A DNA stretch of 64,000 nucleotides from Halobacteroides halobius DSM 5150 (GTDB lineage Bacteria; Bacillota; Halanaerobiia; Halobacteroidales; Halobacteroidaceae): assembly GCF_000328625.1 (NCBI RefSeq), contig NC_019978.1, forward strand, positions 2,418,001 through 2,482,000. Direction: 5' to 3'. Below are positions 52,509 through 61,695 of this stretch, piece after piece. Numbering within the stretch: position 1 is the stretch's first letter; every line of letters starts with the position of its first letter. Position numbers and translations under genes: made by a program. The notes below the pieces were generated by a model. The model made no database searches, was not told where the DNA came from, and worked only from the letters and a program-made list of their open reading frames with translations.

Positions 52509-52539
52509 AAAAAAAGAGCAAGAGATTACTCTCTTACTC
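52509..52539 (-). terminator. Intrinsic terminator of the atp operon
   Basis: On the minus strand GAGTAAGAGA and TCTCTTGCTC form a 10-bp stem (one G-T pair, 4-nt loop) followed by seven T (52509-52515). It overlaps the atpC stop codon. Confidence 0.85.
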
Positions 52540-52944
52540 AAAGTTACGTCCTTTAGTAACTCGTAAACGATTTATAGCTTTCTGTAAAGCAATCTCCGCT
52601 CTACGCTCATTAATATTATCATTGCCTTTATTCAATCTATCTTCAGCTCGTTTTTTAGCTTCTTCAGCCCGCTCAACATCAATTTCATCAGCAAATTCAG
52701 CAGTATCTACTAAAATAGTAACTTCTTCTGGAGTAACTTCCATATAACCATGACTAGCTGCAAGATGAAGTTCATCACTATCTTCTTTAATCTTTATTGG
52801 TCCTATATCTACTCCAGTTATTAAAGGTTCATGATGAGGCATAATTCCCCGGTCACCATCAATTGTCCTTACGGTTATCATCTTGGCTTGGTCATCATAA
52901 ACACTACCTTCCGGGGTAACAATATTAAGCTTCATTTGAGCCAT
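52534..52944 (-). CDS. atpC: ATP synthase epsilon subunit
   Basis: 136 residues: N-terminal beta barrel (MKLNIVTPEGSVYDDQAKMI, GDRGIMPHHEPLITG) and C-terminal helical hairpin. It is part of the central stalk and couples or inhibits the F1 motor. Last gene of the operon, 2 bp after atpD. Confidence 0.96.
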   Translation of the reverse strand: MAQMKLNIVTPEGSVYDDQAKMITVRTIDGDRGIMPHHEPLITGVDIGPIKIKEDSDELHLAASHGYMEVTPEEVTILVDTAEFADEIDVERAEEAKKRAEDRLNKGNDNINERRAEIALQKAINRLRVTKGRNFE

Positions 52945-52946
52945 GA

Positions 52947-55239
<2,293 letters not shown>

Positions 55240-55326: not shown

Positions 55327-56856
55327 TTAGGCAGTCTCTTCTTGCTTACTAACTGCAAAATCACCTTTAAAATCTTCAAGAGCAGATTTTAACTTCTCTT
55401 CTATTTCTTCAGTTAAATCTCCACTCTCTTTAATTTCTTCTCCAATCTCAGGATGATTATCTTGCATAAATCTAATGTACTCATCCTCAAATCTTTCTAT
55501 ATCTTCTAGAGGGATATCATCTAAATAACCATTAGTTACCGCATAAATAACTAGTACCTGCTCCTCAACTTCCATTGGACTTGTTTCATCCTGTTTTAAA
55601 ACTTCTACTACTCTTTCACCACGGGCCAATTTCTTTTGTGTAGATTCATCAAGATCAGACCCAAATTGGGCAAAAGCTTCTAATTCACGATACTGGGACA
55701 TATCAAGCTTTAATGTACCAGCAACATCTTTCATAGCAGAAATTTGAGCATCTCCACCTACTCGAGATACAGATAAACCTACATTAACTGCTGGTCGTAC
55801 CCCTGAGAAAAATAATTCACTTTCTAAATAAATTTGACCATCAGTAATTGAGATTACATTAGTTGGTATATAAGCTGAGATATCTCCAGCTTGAGTTTCA
55901 ATAATAGGTAAGGCTGTTAAAGAACCAGCACCTAAGTCATCATTTAATTTAGCAGCACGCTCTAATAAACGAGAGTGTAAATAGAATACATCACCTGGAT
56001 AAGCCTCTCGTCCTGGTGGTCTTCTTAATAGTAAGGACATTTCACGATATGCTACTGCATGTTTTGATAAATCATCATAAACAACTAGTACATCTTCTCC
56101 TTCATACATAAAATGCTCACCAATAGCACAACCAGAATACGGTGCTAAATACTGTAAAGGAGCCGGATCACTAGCAGATGCAGATACAACAGTAGTATAT
56201 TCTAAGGCTCCAGTTTGCTCTAATTTATTTACAATTTGAGCTACTGTAGAAGACTTCTGACCTATTGCTACATAAACACATGCTACGTCTTTACCCTTTT
56301 GATTGATAATTGTATCAATTCCTAAAGCACTCTTACCAGTTTGTCGATCACCAATAATTAGCTCACGTTGGCCCTTTCCAATTGGTACCATAGAGTCAAT
56401 AGCTTTAATACCAGTTTGTAATGGCTCTTTTACAGGTTGTCTTTCAACAATCCCAGGAGCTCTAGATTCGACTGGTCTATTATTAGTAGTATCAATTGGC
56501 CCTTTACCATCAATTGGCTCACCTAATGCATTTACTACACGACCCTTTAGCTCTTCACCAACAGGAACTTGGACCACATTTCCTGTTCTATAGACTTCAT
56601 CTCCTTCTTCTATCTTAGACTCATCTCCCATAACTACACAACCAATACTATCTTCCTCAAGATTTAAAATCATACCATTAACTCCACTTTCAAACTCTAA
56701 TAACTCTCCAGCCATAGCATCATTTAAACCATGAATCCGAGAGATACCATCTCCAACACTAAGAACAGTTCCTACGCCTTCAGTTTCTAACTTTGCATCA
56801 TAATTCTCTATTTGATCTTTAATTATTGAACTTATTTCTTCAGGCTTAAGATTCAT
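55327..56856 (-). CDS. atpA: ATP synthase alpha subunit
   Basis: 509 residues with P-loop [45 protein letters not shown] and the alpha-subunit C-terminal domain. It carries the non-catalytic nucleotide sites and contacts delta. GGGGTGAGATA precedes the ATG. Confidence 0.98.
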
Positions 56857-56866
56857 TATCTCACCC

Positions 56867-57415
56867 CTAACTTACTTCTAACATCTTTAGATTTTTATTT
56901 AAATTATTAATTTTTCTAAGCAAACTACCATCAATTACTTTATTACCAATTTTTAGTACTAGACCACCTATTAATCGTGGTTTGATTTCTACCTTTAATT
57001 CAATAGTTTTATTTAATTGTTCTTCTAACTTTAACTTCAACTTTTCTTGCTGTTGGGCAGATAACTCAATAGGTGCTTCAACTCCAACTTGTAACCTATC
57101 AGCAAAATCATCTACCTTTTTCTTAAACTGTTGATAGATTAACTGTAATAAATCTTCTCTCTTCTTATCTACCACTAATTTAATAAAATTAAATAATTTT
57201 TCAGACAATTGTGACTCAAAAGCTTCAGTTAATATTTCCTTCTTTTGTCTAGCACTAAGTTCAGGATGTTCTAAAACTTCATTTAATTCTTTACTCTCAT
57301 CAATTACTGTTACTAATTGACTAAACTCTTCTAAAATTTGATCTAAAGTTTCCTCTTCTTGGGCCACTTCAAATAAAGCTTGAGCATATTTTTCAGCTAT
57401 TTCTTGTTCTATCAT
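56867..57415 (-). CDS. atpH: ATP synthase delta subunit
   Basis: 182 residues: an N-terminal six-helix domain ([16 protein letters not shown]) and C-terminal [31 protein letters not shown]. It links the peripheral stalk to F1. Its ATG overlaps the atpF stop by 4 bp. Confidence 0.95.
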
Positions 57416-57915
57416 CTTACTTCACCTAACTTATCTTGATCAAGTTGTTCAATAAACTGATCGATAGTTTCTGTCTGTAGATTTTGTTGAGTAACATATT
57501 GCGCTAATACTTTCTTACTCATCTGAGCAGAAATATTAGCTACATCATCTCTTAGTTCCTCTTGTGCCTCTTGCTTGGCCCTAGCAATTTCATCCTCTGC
57601 TTTTTCGATCTTTCTATTTGCTTCTTCTTGTGCTTGGTCAATAATTTCTTCTTTTCTCTTCTTACCTCTCTGTCGTCCATTTTCAATTATCTCTTGAGCT
57701 TCTTCTCTTGCTTCTTTTAACTGTTGTTGATATTTTTCTTTTAACTTTTCTGCTTCTGCTTCTTTTTCTTTAGCAGATTCAATTTGATTAGAAATATCTT
57801 CAGTTCTTTGACTCATAAAATTTGTAATTGGTTCAAATAAGAAATGTCTTAAAATTAGATATAACACTATAAAGTTAATCAACTGAAAAAAGAAGGTTAT
57901 ACCTATATCAATCAC
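57412..57915 (-). CDS. atpF: ATP synthase b subunit
   Basis: 167 residues: one N-terminal membrane helix (about 5-24) and a long charged helix (about 35-150) forming the peripheral stalk. Only one b-type gene is present, so b is probably a homodimer. The start is a GTG preceded by AAAGGAGGGA. Confidence 0.95.
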   Translation of the reverse strand: MIDIGITFFFQLINFIVLYLILRHFLFEPITNFMSQRTEDISNQIESAKEKEAEAEKLKEKYQQQLKEAREEAQEIIENGRQRGKKRKEEIIDQAQEEANRKIEKAEDEIARAKQEAQEELRDDVANISAQMSKKVLAQYVTQQNLQTETIDQFIEQLDQDKLGEVR

Positions 57916-58014: not shown

Positions 58015-58853
<839 letters not shown>

Positions 58854-58882: not shown

Positions 58883-59632
58883 TTACTCCATCTCCATTGA
58901 AATATAAGTCATAGTTAACATTGAAAAGATAAACGCCTGTAATACACCAGAGAATAAATTAAAATATAAATCAGCTAAACCTGGAATGACTAAACTAACT
59001 ACTCCATATAACAACCCCATAATAACAACACTAGCCATCATATTACCAAATAAACGGAAAGATAATGAAACAGGATCTGCTAAATTCCCAATTATATTCA
59101 ATGGAAATAAAAGGGGCATTGGTTCGAAATAACCTTTTAAATAATCCTTAATTCCATTAGCCTTAATACCAAAATAGTGGATATTAAAGAAAGTAATTGC
59201 TGCTAAAGCAAAAGTAGTATTTAAATCTGCTGTTGGAGTATAAAGATGTAGTACATCTCTTCCAGGAACAATTCCTATAATATTAGCAATGGTTAAGTAA
59301 ATTATTAGTGTTCCTATATAGGGAGTAAACTTCTTCATATCAGAGCCCATTGTAGTTTCAACTAAACTCGAGATATTCTCTACAAAAGCCTCAGCTATAT
59401 TCTGCAGACTACCTGGTTTAGGCTCTCTTTCTAAATTTCTAGTAGCTAACCAAGAAAAAATAGCTAAAAGGGCCATAATAACCCAAGTGGTAGTTACAGT
59501 TGATTTAATGGGGGCATTAGCAATCTGCAATATTCTAGTTAATGCATTATCAGGTAAATAAAAGATAACATCTGGACTAAATGCATCAGCTGATGGAGCA
59601 CCTTTAAGAAATATCTTATCTAAAATACTCAC
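58883..59632 (-). CDS. atpB: ATP synthase a subunit
   Basis: 249 residues with several membrane helices. The essential stator Arg is Arg193 in DPVSLSFRLFGNMMAS, and the last helix has LQAFIFSMLTMTYI. It forms the ion half-channels next to the c ring. The start is a GTG, with GGAGGGAAAA about 9 nt upstream. Confidence 0.96.
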   Translation of the reverse strand: MSILDKIFLKGAPSADAFSPDVIFYLPDNALTRILQIANAPIKSTVTTTWVIMALLAIFSWLATRNLEREPKPGSLQNIAEAFVENISSLVETTMGSDMKKFTPYIGTLIIYLTIANIIGIVPGRDVLHLYTPTADLNTTFALAAITFFNIHYFGIKANGIKDYLKGYFEPMPLLFPLNIIGNLADPVSLSFRLFGNMMASVVIMGLLYGVVSLVIPGLADLYFNLFSGVLQAFIFSMLTMTYISMEME

Positions 59633-59636
59633 TTGT

Positions 59637-60047
59637 TTATTTTCCCTCCTTTCTAATTAAATTATTTAACTTTTGATCTTCAGGCCAAAAATTAAAAACA
59701 TTAACTATTAAAACAACTATCTTAACTGTTAGCATCCCTACTATTACAGTTACTAGATTTATATCTGGCCTTTGTAAAGAAATATATAAAACTGCAAACC
59801 AAAGACTATACCTTATTATGTATTGGATAAAAGTATAGATACCAGCTTTAACTGGCTCAAACTTAACTGCCTTTTGTAAAGAAAACGATAATAAATGAAA
59901 ATTTATCAAACTCATTATTGCTCCTACAATAAGTCCTAAAGTAGCCCTTTGACCAAAGAAAAAAGCCACCAAAAAGATTAATAATAGATTTAAAATAGAT
60001 GCCCACTTGAAAATAAATCGTTTAGTAGTAGTTAATTGTTTCATCAT
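59637..60047 (-). CDS. atpI: ATP synthase subunit I-like protein AtpI
   Basis: About 136 residues with four predicted membrane helices (about 13-30, 35-52, 70-90, 100-120). Members of this family assist c-ring assembly. The ATG pair after GGGAAGTGATTG is the likely start; the previous gene's stop overlaps the upstream region. Sequence conservation in this family is low, so the call rests on position and topology. Confidence 0.85.
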   Translation of the reverse strand: MMKQLTTTKRFIFKWASILNLLLIFLVAFFFGQRATLGLIVGAIMSLINFHLLSFSLQKAVKFEPVKAGIYTFIQYIIRYSLWFAVLYISLQRPDINLVTVIVGMLTVKIVVLIVNVFNFWPEDQKLNNLIRKEGK

Positions 60048-60050
60048 CAA

Positions 60051-60272
60051 TCACTTCCCACTATCTTGCTGACTAGCAAGTAATTTATAAGCATTTCTAA
60101 AACCAATAAAAACACCTGAAAGAATACATAAGATTAAAAATAAGATATTAGTTCCTAATAATTGGTCTAAATAATTCCCTAGCCAGACTCCAGCTATAAT
60201 TGGTACAATAATTGTAATTCCTACTTGAGATAACAAAGCTAATGCTTTAAGAATACCTATTTTATCTTTCAT
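60051..60272 (-). CDS. AtpZ-like small membrane protein
   Basis: 73 residues, two membrane helices, with VGITIIVPIIAGVWLGNYLDQLLG followed by FLILCILSGVFIGFRNAYKLL, the AtpZ/AtpI-superfamily pattern. First gene of the atp operon; the related AtpZ acts with AtpI in some bacteria. The ATG at 60272 is preceded by TAGGAGCG; the frame is open another 29 codons upstream without support. Confidence 0.85.
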   Translation of the reverse strand: MKDKIGILKALALLSQVGITIIVPIIAGVWLGNYLDQLLGTNILFLILCILSGVFIGFRNAYKLLASQQDSGK

Positions 60273-60403
60273 ATTAACGCTCCTAATATAGTAATCCCTA
60301 ATTGAAATTAAAATATACATTAAATCTATTATACCAAATATAATTTGATCCAACAACAAGAATAAAACTATTATTCATATAATTACCATCCAAAAAATAA
60401 TAT

Positions 60404-60430
60404 AAAAAGACTACAGCAAGAGCCATAGTC
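60404..60430 (-). terminator. Riboswitch expression platform terminator before the atp operon
   Basis: On the minus strand GACTATGGC pairs with GCTGTAGTC (9 bp with two G-T pairs) around TCTT, followed by TTTTT. It lies about 45 nt after the c-di-AMP aptamer and about 130 nt before atpZ, so ligand binding could switch the operon at transcription termination. Confidence 0.8.
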
Positions 60431-60475
60431 TCATTTTGGATAGAGTTATCCTATATAGGTATCCCCCTTAAAAAA

Positions 60476-60590
60476 TGCCTACGGAGTTAGCTGTCGGGCT
60501 CAGGCTAAAGGGTACCTTACCAAACTTAATTTAATAAGCTTAGATTCGCCCCAAAAATGGGTCCCCCGTTCTTAAATAAGACTCGGCTAT
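60476..60590 (-). ncRNA. c-di-AMP riboswitch (ydaO/yuaA type)
   Basis: On the minus strand the aptamer runs from AGCCGAGTC near 60588 through AACGGGGGACCC, TTGGGGCGAATC, GGTAAGGTACCC and AGCCTGAGCCCGACAGC to ACTCCGTAGGC near 60477, all hallmark blocks of the ydaO/yuaA class. The class binds c-di-AMP and usually turns genes off. It stands between a strong promoter and a terminator, directly upstream of the ATP synthase operon. Confidence 0.93.
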
Positions 60591-60633
60591 ACAGATATTA
60601 AATTTATTTTATCTATAAATATTTGCTGTCTCT

Positions 60634-60662
60634 ATTATAATAGATATTTTTAACTTTGTAAA
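60634..60662 (-). promoter_or_regulatory. Promoter of the riboswitch and atp operon
   Basis: On the minus strand -35 TTTACA (60662-60657), a 17-bp spacer and -10 TATAAT (60639-60634). The transcript would begin near 60627, about 37 nt before the aptamer. Confidence 0.85.
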
Positions 60663-60687: not shown

Positions 60688-61695
60688 TTAGTACTTGCTA
60701 TACTTATTGGAATCAAAATTAAAAAAACCTGATTTGCGAGCTCCTACCAATAAAAAACTAGAAGCCATAACTAATAAAAATATGCCCTCTCCTAAGTTAG
60801 CTTGATTAAGACCAACCGCTATCAATCCTAAAAAAACACTAATTAAATACACAATAACTACAGCTTGCCATTGATTTAAACCCATTCTTAATAACTGATG
60901 ATGCAAATGATTCTTATCAGCCTTAAAAATAGACTTTCCACTTAATTTACGTCTTAAAATAGCAAATAAAGTATCAAAAATAGGAATACCCAATGCCAAA
61001 ATTGAAGTAACAAAAGTTAAAACTGTCACACTTTTTAAAGCACCAGTAATAGCAATAACTCCTAACATAAATCCTAAAAACATACTTCCTGTATCCCCCA
61101 TAAAGATTTGCGCAGGATTAAAATTATAACGTAAAAACCCTAAAGTAGCACCAATTAAAACTACCGTTAATAACACAGTCAACATTTGCCCTTGATAATA
61201 AGCAACAATCGCTAATGGAACTGCTGAAATAACTGTTATTCCTCCAGCTAATCCATCTAAACCATCAATCAGATTAATAGTATTTATCGTTCCTAACATC
61301 CAAATTAAAGTAACCGGAATACTTAGTATACCTATATAATAACCTCTAATGAAATTAATTTTAATACCAAATAAAGTTAAAATTAACACAATTATTATTT
61401 GACCTAGCAACTTAGTCAGTGCAGATAGCTCATACAAGTCATCTATAAGCCCTAAGCCCACAATTAAAGTACTACAGACCATAATACCTTTTATTTGAGA
61501 ATTAACTTCTAAAAATAACAACCCTAATATAACCCCAGCATAAATTGCCAAGCCACCTAAATTAGGGATTGGCTTAACATTAACCCTTCTTTTATTAGGC
61601 TTATCTACTGCTCCTAAAATAAAAGCAAGTCTTTTAGCCATAGGGGTTAAAAGATACGAACCCAATAGACTAATTAAAAGAACAAATAGTAACAT
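60688..61695 (-). CDS. WecA/TagO-type undecaprenyl-phosphate sugar-1-phosphate transferase
   Basis: 335 residues with about ten membrane helices. Conserved loops: LGAVDKPNKRRVN, INLIDGLDGLAGG (catalytic Asp region), GDTGSMFLGF and ADKNHLHHQLLRMG. It transfers GlcNAc-1-phosphate or similar from UDP-sugar to undecaprenyl phosphate, starting O-antigen, teichoic acid or other wall polymers. In a diderm with LPS, O-antigen is plausible. GAGGTGAG precedes the ATG; the gene ends just upstream of the riboswitch promoter. Confidence 0.92.
   Translation of the reverse strand: MLLFVLLISLLGSYLLTPMAKRLAFILGAVDKPNKRRVNVKPIPNLGGLAIYAGVILGLLFLEVNSQIKGIMVCSTLIVGLGLIDDLYELSALTKLLGQIIIVLILTLFGIKINFIRGYYIGILSIPVTLIWMLGTINTINLIDGLDGLAGGITVISAVPLAIVAYYQGQMLTVLLTVVLIGATLGFLRYNFNPAQIFMGDTGSMFLGFMLGVIAITGALKSVTVLTFVTSILALGIPIFDTLFAILRRKLSGKSIFKADKNHLHHQLLRMGLNQWQAVVIVYLISVFLGLIAVGLNQANLGEGIFLLVMASSFLLVGARKSGFFNFDSNKYSKY

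Follow-up and report, generated by a model that had tools for sequence, protein, structure and literature searches.

c-di-AMP is known as the messenger that keeps K+, osmolytes and the cell wall in balance. Whether it also controls the ATP synthase is the question raised by a 64 000-nucleotide stretch of DNA from Halobacteroides halobius DSM 5150 (the window, to which all positions in this species refer), where a c-di-AMP riboswitch had been predicted from the sequence in front of the atp operon. If conserved, such a switch would tie the K+/turgor messenger to the central ion-driven enzyme and would connect turgor sensing to the Na+ bioenergetics of extreme halophiles in a way that can be tested. 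The targets of c-di-AMP riboswitches described in the literature are genes for K+ and amino-acid transport, the cell wall and osmotic functions, in keeping with the original prediction's statement that they are mostly K+ and osmolyte transport and cell-wall hydrolases. The ATP synthase appears to be unreported as a target: literature searches returned no report linking it to a c-di-AMP riboswitch, with a listing in the tables of Nelson 2013 or Block 2010 still possible.

The atp leader and its operon

The leader is the interval between a wecA/tagO-like gene (60688-61695) and atpZ. On the minus strand it carries, in this order, a promoter (P1), an aptamer and a terminator, so that the aptamer sits in a 5′ leader with an expression platform, a layout kept in seven genomes. 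The features of the leader are as follows.

60634..60662, minus strand: promoter P1 of the sigma-A type, TTTACA-N17-TATAAT, ahead of the aptamer (11/12 match)
60460..60598, minus strand: c-di-AMP riboswitch aptamer, RF00379 (cmscan)
60575..60589, minus strand: 5′ strand of aptamer helix P1 and of the helix after it, predicted to pair as antiterminator (folding)
60420..60434, minus strand: switching strand, formed by the terminator's left arm (complementarity, folding)
60407..60432, minus strand: intrinsic terminator hairpin, 11 bp with a 4-nt loop (folding)
60406-60397, minus strand: T-rich tail after the terminator
60328..60356, minus strand: P2, extended −10 promoter TTGTTG-N17-TATAAT with TGn, between terminator and atpZ, a possible bypass of the riboswitch

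The predicted ydaO/yuaA aptamer was confirmed by covariance search: cmscan gave an RF00379 (c-di-AMP/ydaO) match at 60598-60460 with 88.2 bits (E 3e-19) against a gathering score of 38 bits, spanning the whole model (1-134 of 134). The conserved core is retained, with GGGGACCCA..UUUUGGGG, GAAUC and GAGCCCGACAGCUAACUCCGUAGGC differing little from the consensus. No other RF00379 copy occurs in the 2.65-Mb genome, which encodes two DAC (c-di-AMP synthase) domains, suggesting that H. halobius could make the ligand. Judged by its sequence, the RNA is an ordinary member of the c-di-AMP riboswitch class, from which its ligand is taken. Its target, the ATP synthase operon, is not of the usual type (K+/osmolyte transport, cell wall); such targets are typical of the class without defining it, and the RNA remains a member.

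The near-consensus promoter expected upstream is present (60662-60634), and its quality was equalled in only 2 of 500 dinucleotide shuffles. Its hexamers and spacing are identical in all six Halobacteroidaceae riboswitch loci and also in both Natroniella species, which lack the riboswitch. The terminator and its T-rich tail had likewise been foreseen, but with a stem of 9 rather than 11 pairs; the hairpin alone has a predicted stability of −14.1 kcal/mol, and a terminator follows the aptamer in 7/7 atp-linked loci.

Directly downstream lies an operon with the order atpZ-I-B-E-E-F-H-A-G-D-C, its first gene preceded by an AGGAG ribosome site. Matches to PF09527, PF03899 and TIGR01131 bear out the identification of the first three genes as atpZ-atpI-atpB; genes from atpZ to atpG are named by family models, atpD and atpC from sequence or position alone.

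60051..60272, minus strand: atpZ, first gene of the operon (PF09527 ATPase_gene1, E 6e-19)
59637..60050, minus strand: atpI (PF03899, E 3e-10)
58883..59632, minus strand: atpB, subunit a (TIGR01131, above cut-off)
58302..58853, minus strand: atpE1, fused double-hairpin c subunit (TIGR01260, two stretches)
58015..58266, minus strand: atpE2, single-hairpin c subunit with a Q / E-T Na+-type motif (TIGR01260, sequence)
57412..57915, minus strand: atpF, subunit b (TIGR01144)
56867..57415, minus strand: atpH, subunit delta (TIGR01145)
55327..56856, minus strand: atpA, subunit alpha (TIGR00962)
54394..55239, minus strand: atpG, subunit gamma (TIGR01146)
52947..54374, minus strand: atpD, subunit beta (open reading frame of beta-type sequence, Walker A GGAGVGKT)
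52534..52944, minus strand: atpC, subunit epsilon (open reading frame, position and sequence)

The c subunits carry the residues of the Na+ type, a Gln in helix 1 and a Glu followed by Ser or Thr in helix 2. In AtpE2 the motif reads GIGQGY...AVAETTG and in the first hairpin of AtpE1 GQG...AVAETSG, with the Glu present; in the second hairpin of AtpE1, Gln replaces Glu. The F-type ATP synthase of H. halobius is thus probably Na+-coupled, as had been proposed. The genome also encodes an NQR2/RnfD/RnfE-family membrane protein, and both directions could therefore be open to the enzyme, which may act mainly as a Na+ pump.

An F/V-hybrid-type rotor, with a fused c subunit bearing Gln for Glu in hairpin 2 alongside a normal c subunit, is encoded in most Halobacteroidaceae and in genome G047, and not in Natroniella. 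Elsewhere in the class, five loci encode c-like subunits without the ion-binding Glu (L074 1405-1181, L077 2192-2416, L084 1326-1102, L085 2248-2469 and L073 2336-2464): ISGSTG or a similar sequence replaces VAESTG, GMG replaces GQG in the four with that helix covered, and a normal c subunit gene lies near the Glu-less one in four of the five.

Predicted switching helix and putative second promoter

A riboswitch acting through termination needs aptamer and terminator pairings that exclude one another, and in H. halobius folding predicts them. Between the left arm of the terminator (60434-60420) and the aptamer 5′ strand (60589-60575) a duplex of −15.4 kcal/mol is predicted, against a shuffle mean of −7.2, and none of 1000 shuffles was as good. 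This alternative pairing appears in the minimum-energy fold of the leader, and its predicted probability without ligand is 0.85 for the full leader and 0.88 while the transcript is still unfinished. The pairing known from Dehalobacter, between the right shoulder of aptamer helix P1 and the terminator, was considered for H. halobius and rejected, as 465 of 1000 shuffles did as well, which is chance level.

In the other genera mutually exclusive pairing is found in part. The switching strand varies by genus, being the 5′ strand of the aptamer in H. halobius and Halanaerobacter and the 3′ strand in Orenia and Halonatronum. In the unfinished transcript the left arm pairs with the aptamer 5′ strand in Halanaerobacter (probability 0.69) and with the 3′ side in Halonatronum (0.86), and the pairing with aptamer strands is weaker in Orenia; folding and shuffles revealed no convincing antiterminator in the leaders of O. 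metallireducens and G017, a genome from another family. When the leaders were scored singly, only the H. halobius pairing beat all shuffles, making it the best-supported switching helix of the seven.

The reading that we consider likely is that the operon of the probably Na+-coupled ATP synthase is under a transcriptional OFF switch, with P2 giving a basal level. RNA polymerase would start at P1 and transcribe the aptamer. At low c-di-AMP, the aptamer 5′ strand would capture the terminator's left arm, allowing read-through into atpZ-C. At high c-di-AMP, the ligand-bound aptamer would hold its 5′ strand, the terminator would form and the P1 transcript would end before atpZ. We infer the OFF direction from the class of the RNA and from folding: a bound aptamer would occupy the 5′ strand and so free the terminator.

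The original prediction held that the riboswitch controls the whole ATP synthase, and named an additional promoter between terminator and atpZ, driving the operon, among the findings that would refute it. The placement of riboswitch and terminator before the operon stands, but P2 (60356-60328), which had been overlooked, is in part such a promoter and makes the claim too strong for H. halobius. The count of P2 hexamer matches is not significant by itself in this AT-rich stretch (311 of 500 shuffles were as good), and only the extended −10 element and the like layout in Halanaerobacter support P2. The full extended pattern has a chance of 0.003 in composition-matched shuffles and the same post-terminator layout in Halanaerobacter one of 0.0006, both values being somewhat flattering since the pattern was defined after the sequence had been seen. 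No P2-like promoter was found in the atp leaders of Orenia or Halonatronum, where the best candidates match at 7-8 of 12 positions. A share of transcription independent of the riboswitch is likely in H. halobius and Halanaerobacter, as P2 lies past the terminator in both. In H. halobius, atp is therefore probably transcribed from both promoters, under riboswitch control from P1 and constantly from P2, the latter giving a basal level on top of which the switch would tune expression without setting it in full; in Orenia and Halonatronum, control of the operon by the riboswitch is probably complete and the original claim may hold.

The strongest alternative accepts a functional riboswitch but assigns it a minor role: P2 would drive most atp transcription, while P1 and the riboswitch would provide a conditional increment or mainly end read-through from tagO/wecA. 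The extended −10 pattern of P2, with TTGTTG at 17 nt and its counterpart in Halanaerobacter, speaks for this view, and a constitutive source would be expected for a housekeeping operon. On the other hand, P1 matches better (11/12 versus 9/12) and is kept in eight genomes, among them the aptamer-less Natroniella, whereas Orenia and Halonatronum lack P2, and the P2 hexamers score no better than chance. We regard this account as unlikely. That the switch works in the opposite sense, c-di-AMP binding favouring read-through and raising ATP synthase expression, is very improbable: the aptamer by itself does not reveal the direction, but a terminator that is separate from the aptamer, with a left arm competing for an aptamer strand, is the layout found to be OFF in tested members. 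Equally improbable is a degenerate remnant that has lost ligand binding and retains just an attenuating terminator, for although the H. halobius aptamer scores slightly lower than those at atp in Orenia and Halonatronum (88 versus 94-101 bits) and RF00379 copies known in sister genera are missing from this genome beyond the one at atp, the match is full length with a conserved core, its switching helix is the best supported of all seven, and aptamer and terminator are missing together in the switch-less Natroniella.

Distribution and history of the link

RF00379 is present in 42 of 59 genomes of the class Halanaerobiia, 57 of which have an AtpB match. Inspection of the DNA behind 61 aptamers of the class, along the lines of the survey suggested with the original prediction, showed atpZ-atpI-atpB downstream of seven: those of H. 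halobius, Halanaerobacter jeridensis, Halonatronum saccharophilum, Orenia metallireducens, two more genomes of the genus of O. metallireducens, and G017. The arrangement thus occurs in six of eight Halobacteroidaceae genomes; the other two, both Natroniella species, have RF00379 elsewhere in the genome and not at atp. A covariance model of our own, built from the seven atp leaders, recovered 59 of 60 tested sources with known aptamers and was used to scan 120 regions upstream of atpB from other Bacillota, 35 distant loci and 24 further loci of the class, and twenty additional atp loci were scanned with Rfam. Among these some 200 other atp loci no further atp-linked c-di-AMP aptamer was found, the model recovering G017 again and one aptamer in G280 that belongs to another gene pair. 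The atp leaders yielded no Na+-I or other Rfam riboswitch besides RF00379. An association that is lineage-specific and repeated is too consistent for a chance neighbour, and its conservation in six Halobacteroidaceae genomes and one of another family makes real regulation far likelier.

Other RF00379 copies in the class lie in front of genes for TrkH, KdpA, amino-acid permeases and a Na+/H+ exchanger. One candidate, in G280, was rejected as an atp-linked case: the aptamer (L199, 42-169) precedes a TrkH-TrkA (KtrB/KtrA-like) pair that adjoins the atp operon upstream, and atpB lies 2.3 kb later. A PAS-HAMP histidine kinase is a frequent target of c-di-AMP riboswitches in the class, outside the usual listed targets (L013, L015, L016, L019, L031, L034, L038, L044, L021-L025, L054 and L060; called with Pfam in L031 and L038 and by similar N-termini in the others).

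The atp leaders of Natroniella (L093 and L094, about 2136-2363) keep P1 and homologous downstream sequence (TATGTATAA...ATTGTATAAACTA), while the aptamer and terminator block is absent as one unit, apparently a clean loss. A tree of AtpI, AtpB and AtpF groups Natroniella with Orenia and Halonatronum at support values of 66 and 87, a mild argument for loss of the switch rather than its later gain. The ATP synthase of G017 forms a deeply separate lineage in the same tree (support 100), and its riboswitch-atp link therefore looks independent. All six Halobacteroidaceae with the switch have the fused double-hairpin c subunit and Natroniella has neither; in G047 the fused subunit occurs and the switch does not. 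The two Natroniella species and G047 possess closely related ATP synthases without the switch, which, like the difference in switching helix between genera, counts against the proposed control.

Proposed physiological meaning and known systems

Taken together, the turgor messenger c-di-AMP probably also sets the amount of ATP synthase in H. halobius and its close relatives, with a probable partial bypass in H. halobius itself. A fall in c-di-AMP, on salt upshift or at low K+, would then yield more of the Na+-translocating ATP synthase/ATPase along with K+ uptake, a role that, like the use of P2, is proposed here. A wider reading is possible but more tentative: that c-di-AMP directly controls a Na+-translocating F/V-hybrid ATP synthase serving largely as a Na+ pump in salt-in fermenters, under a switch ancestral in Halobacteroidaceae, lost by excision in Natroniella and recruited again in another family. 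If so, a single turgor messenger would turn on primary Na+ extrusion and K+ uptake together.

The F/V-hybrid rotor of Acetobacterium woodii combines a fused double-hairpin c subunit, one hairpin of which lacks the ion-binding Glu, with normal c subunits. H. halobius resembles it in combining a fused with a normal c subunit and in the residues of the Na+ type (Q and E-T/S), but has one normal c gene rather than two. For the switch itself, the closest counterpart is the kdpFABC leader of Bacillus thuringiensis, which shares the aptamer family, a separate terminator before the first gene and an upstream sigma-A promoter; OFF action by ligand-promoted termination was measured there (PMC6488665) and for the c-di-AMP riboswitch of Dehalobacter ablA (PMC9337991), the same logic that we propose here. 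The H. halobius leader differs from that of kdpFABC in its target, an F-type ATP synthase operon rather than K+/osmolyte transport or cell-wall genes, and in the second promoter past the terminator in two genera, Halobacteroides and Halanaerobacter. Riboswitch control of ATP synthase genes tied to Na+ and osmotic physiology has a precedent in the Na+-I (DUF1646) riboswitch, an ON switch on ATP synthase operons that also occurs in tandem with c-di-AMP switches on ablA and dapB (White et al. 2022, PMC9337991). The link described here would be parallel to that one, yet distinct from it in aptamer and ligand and opposite in sign.
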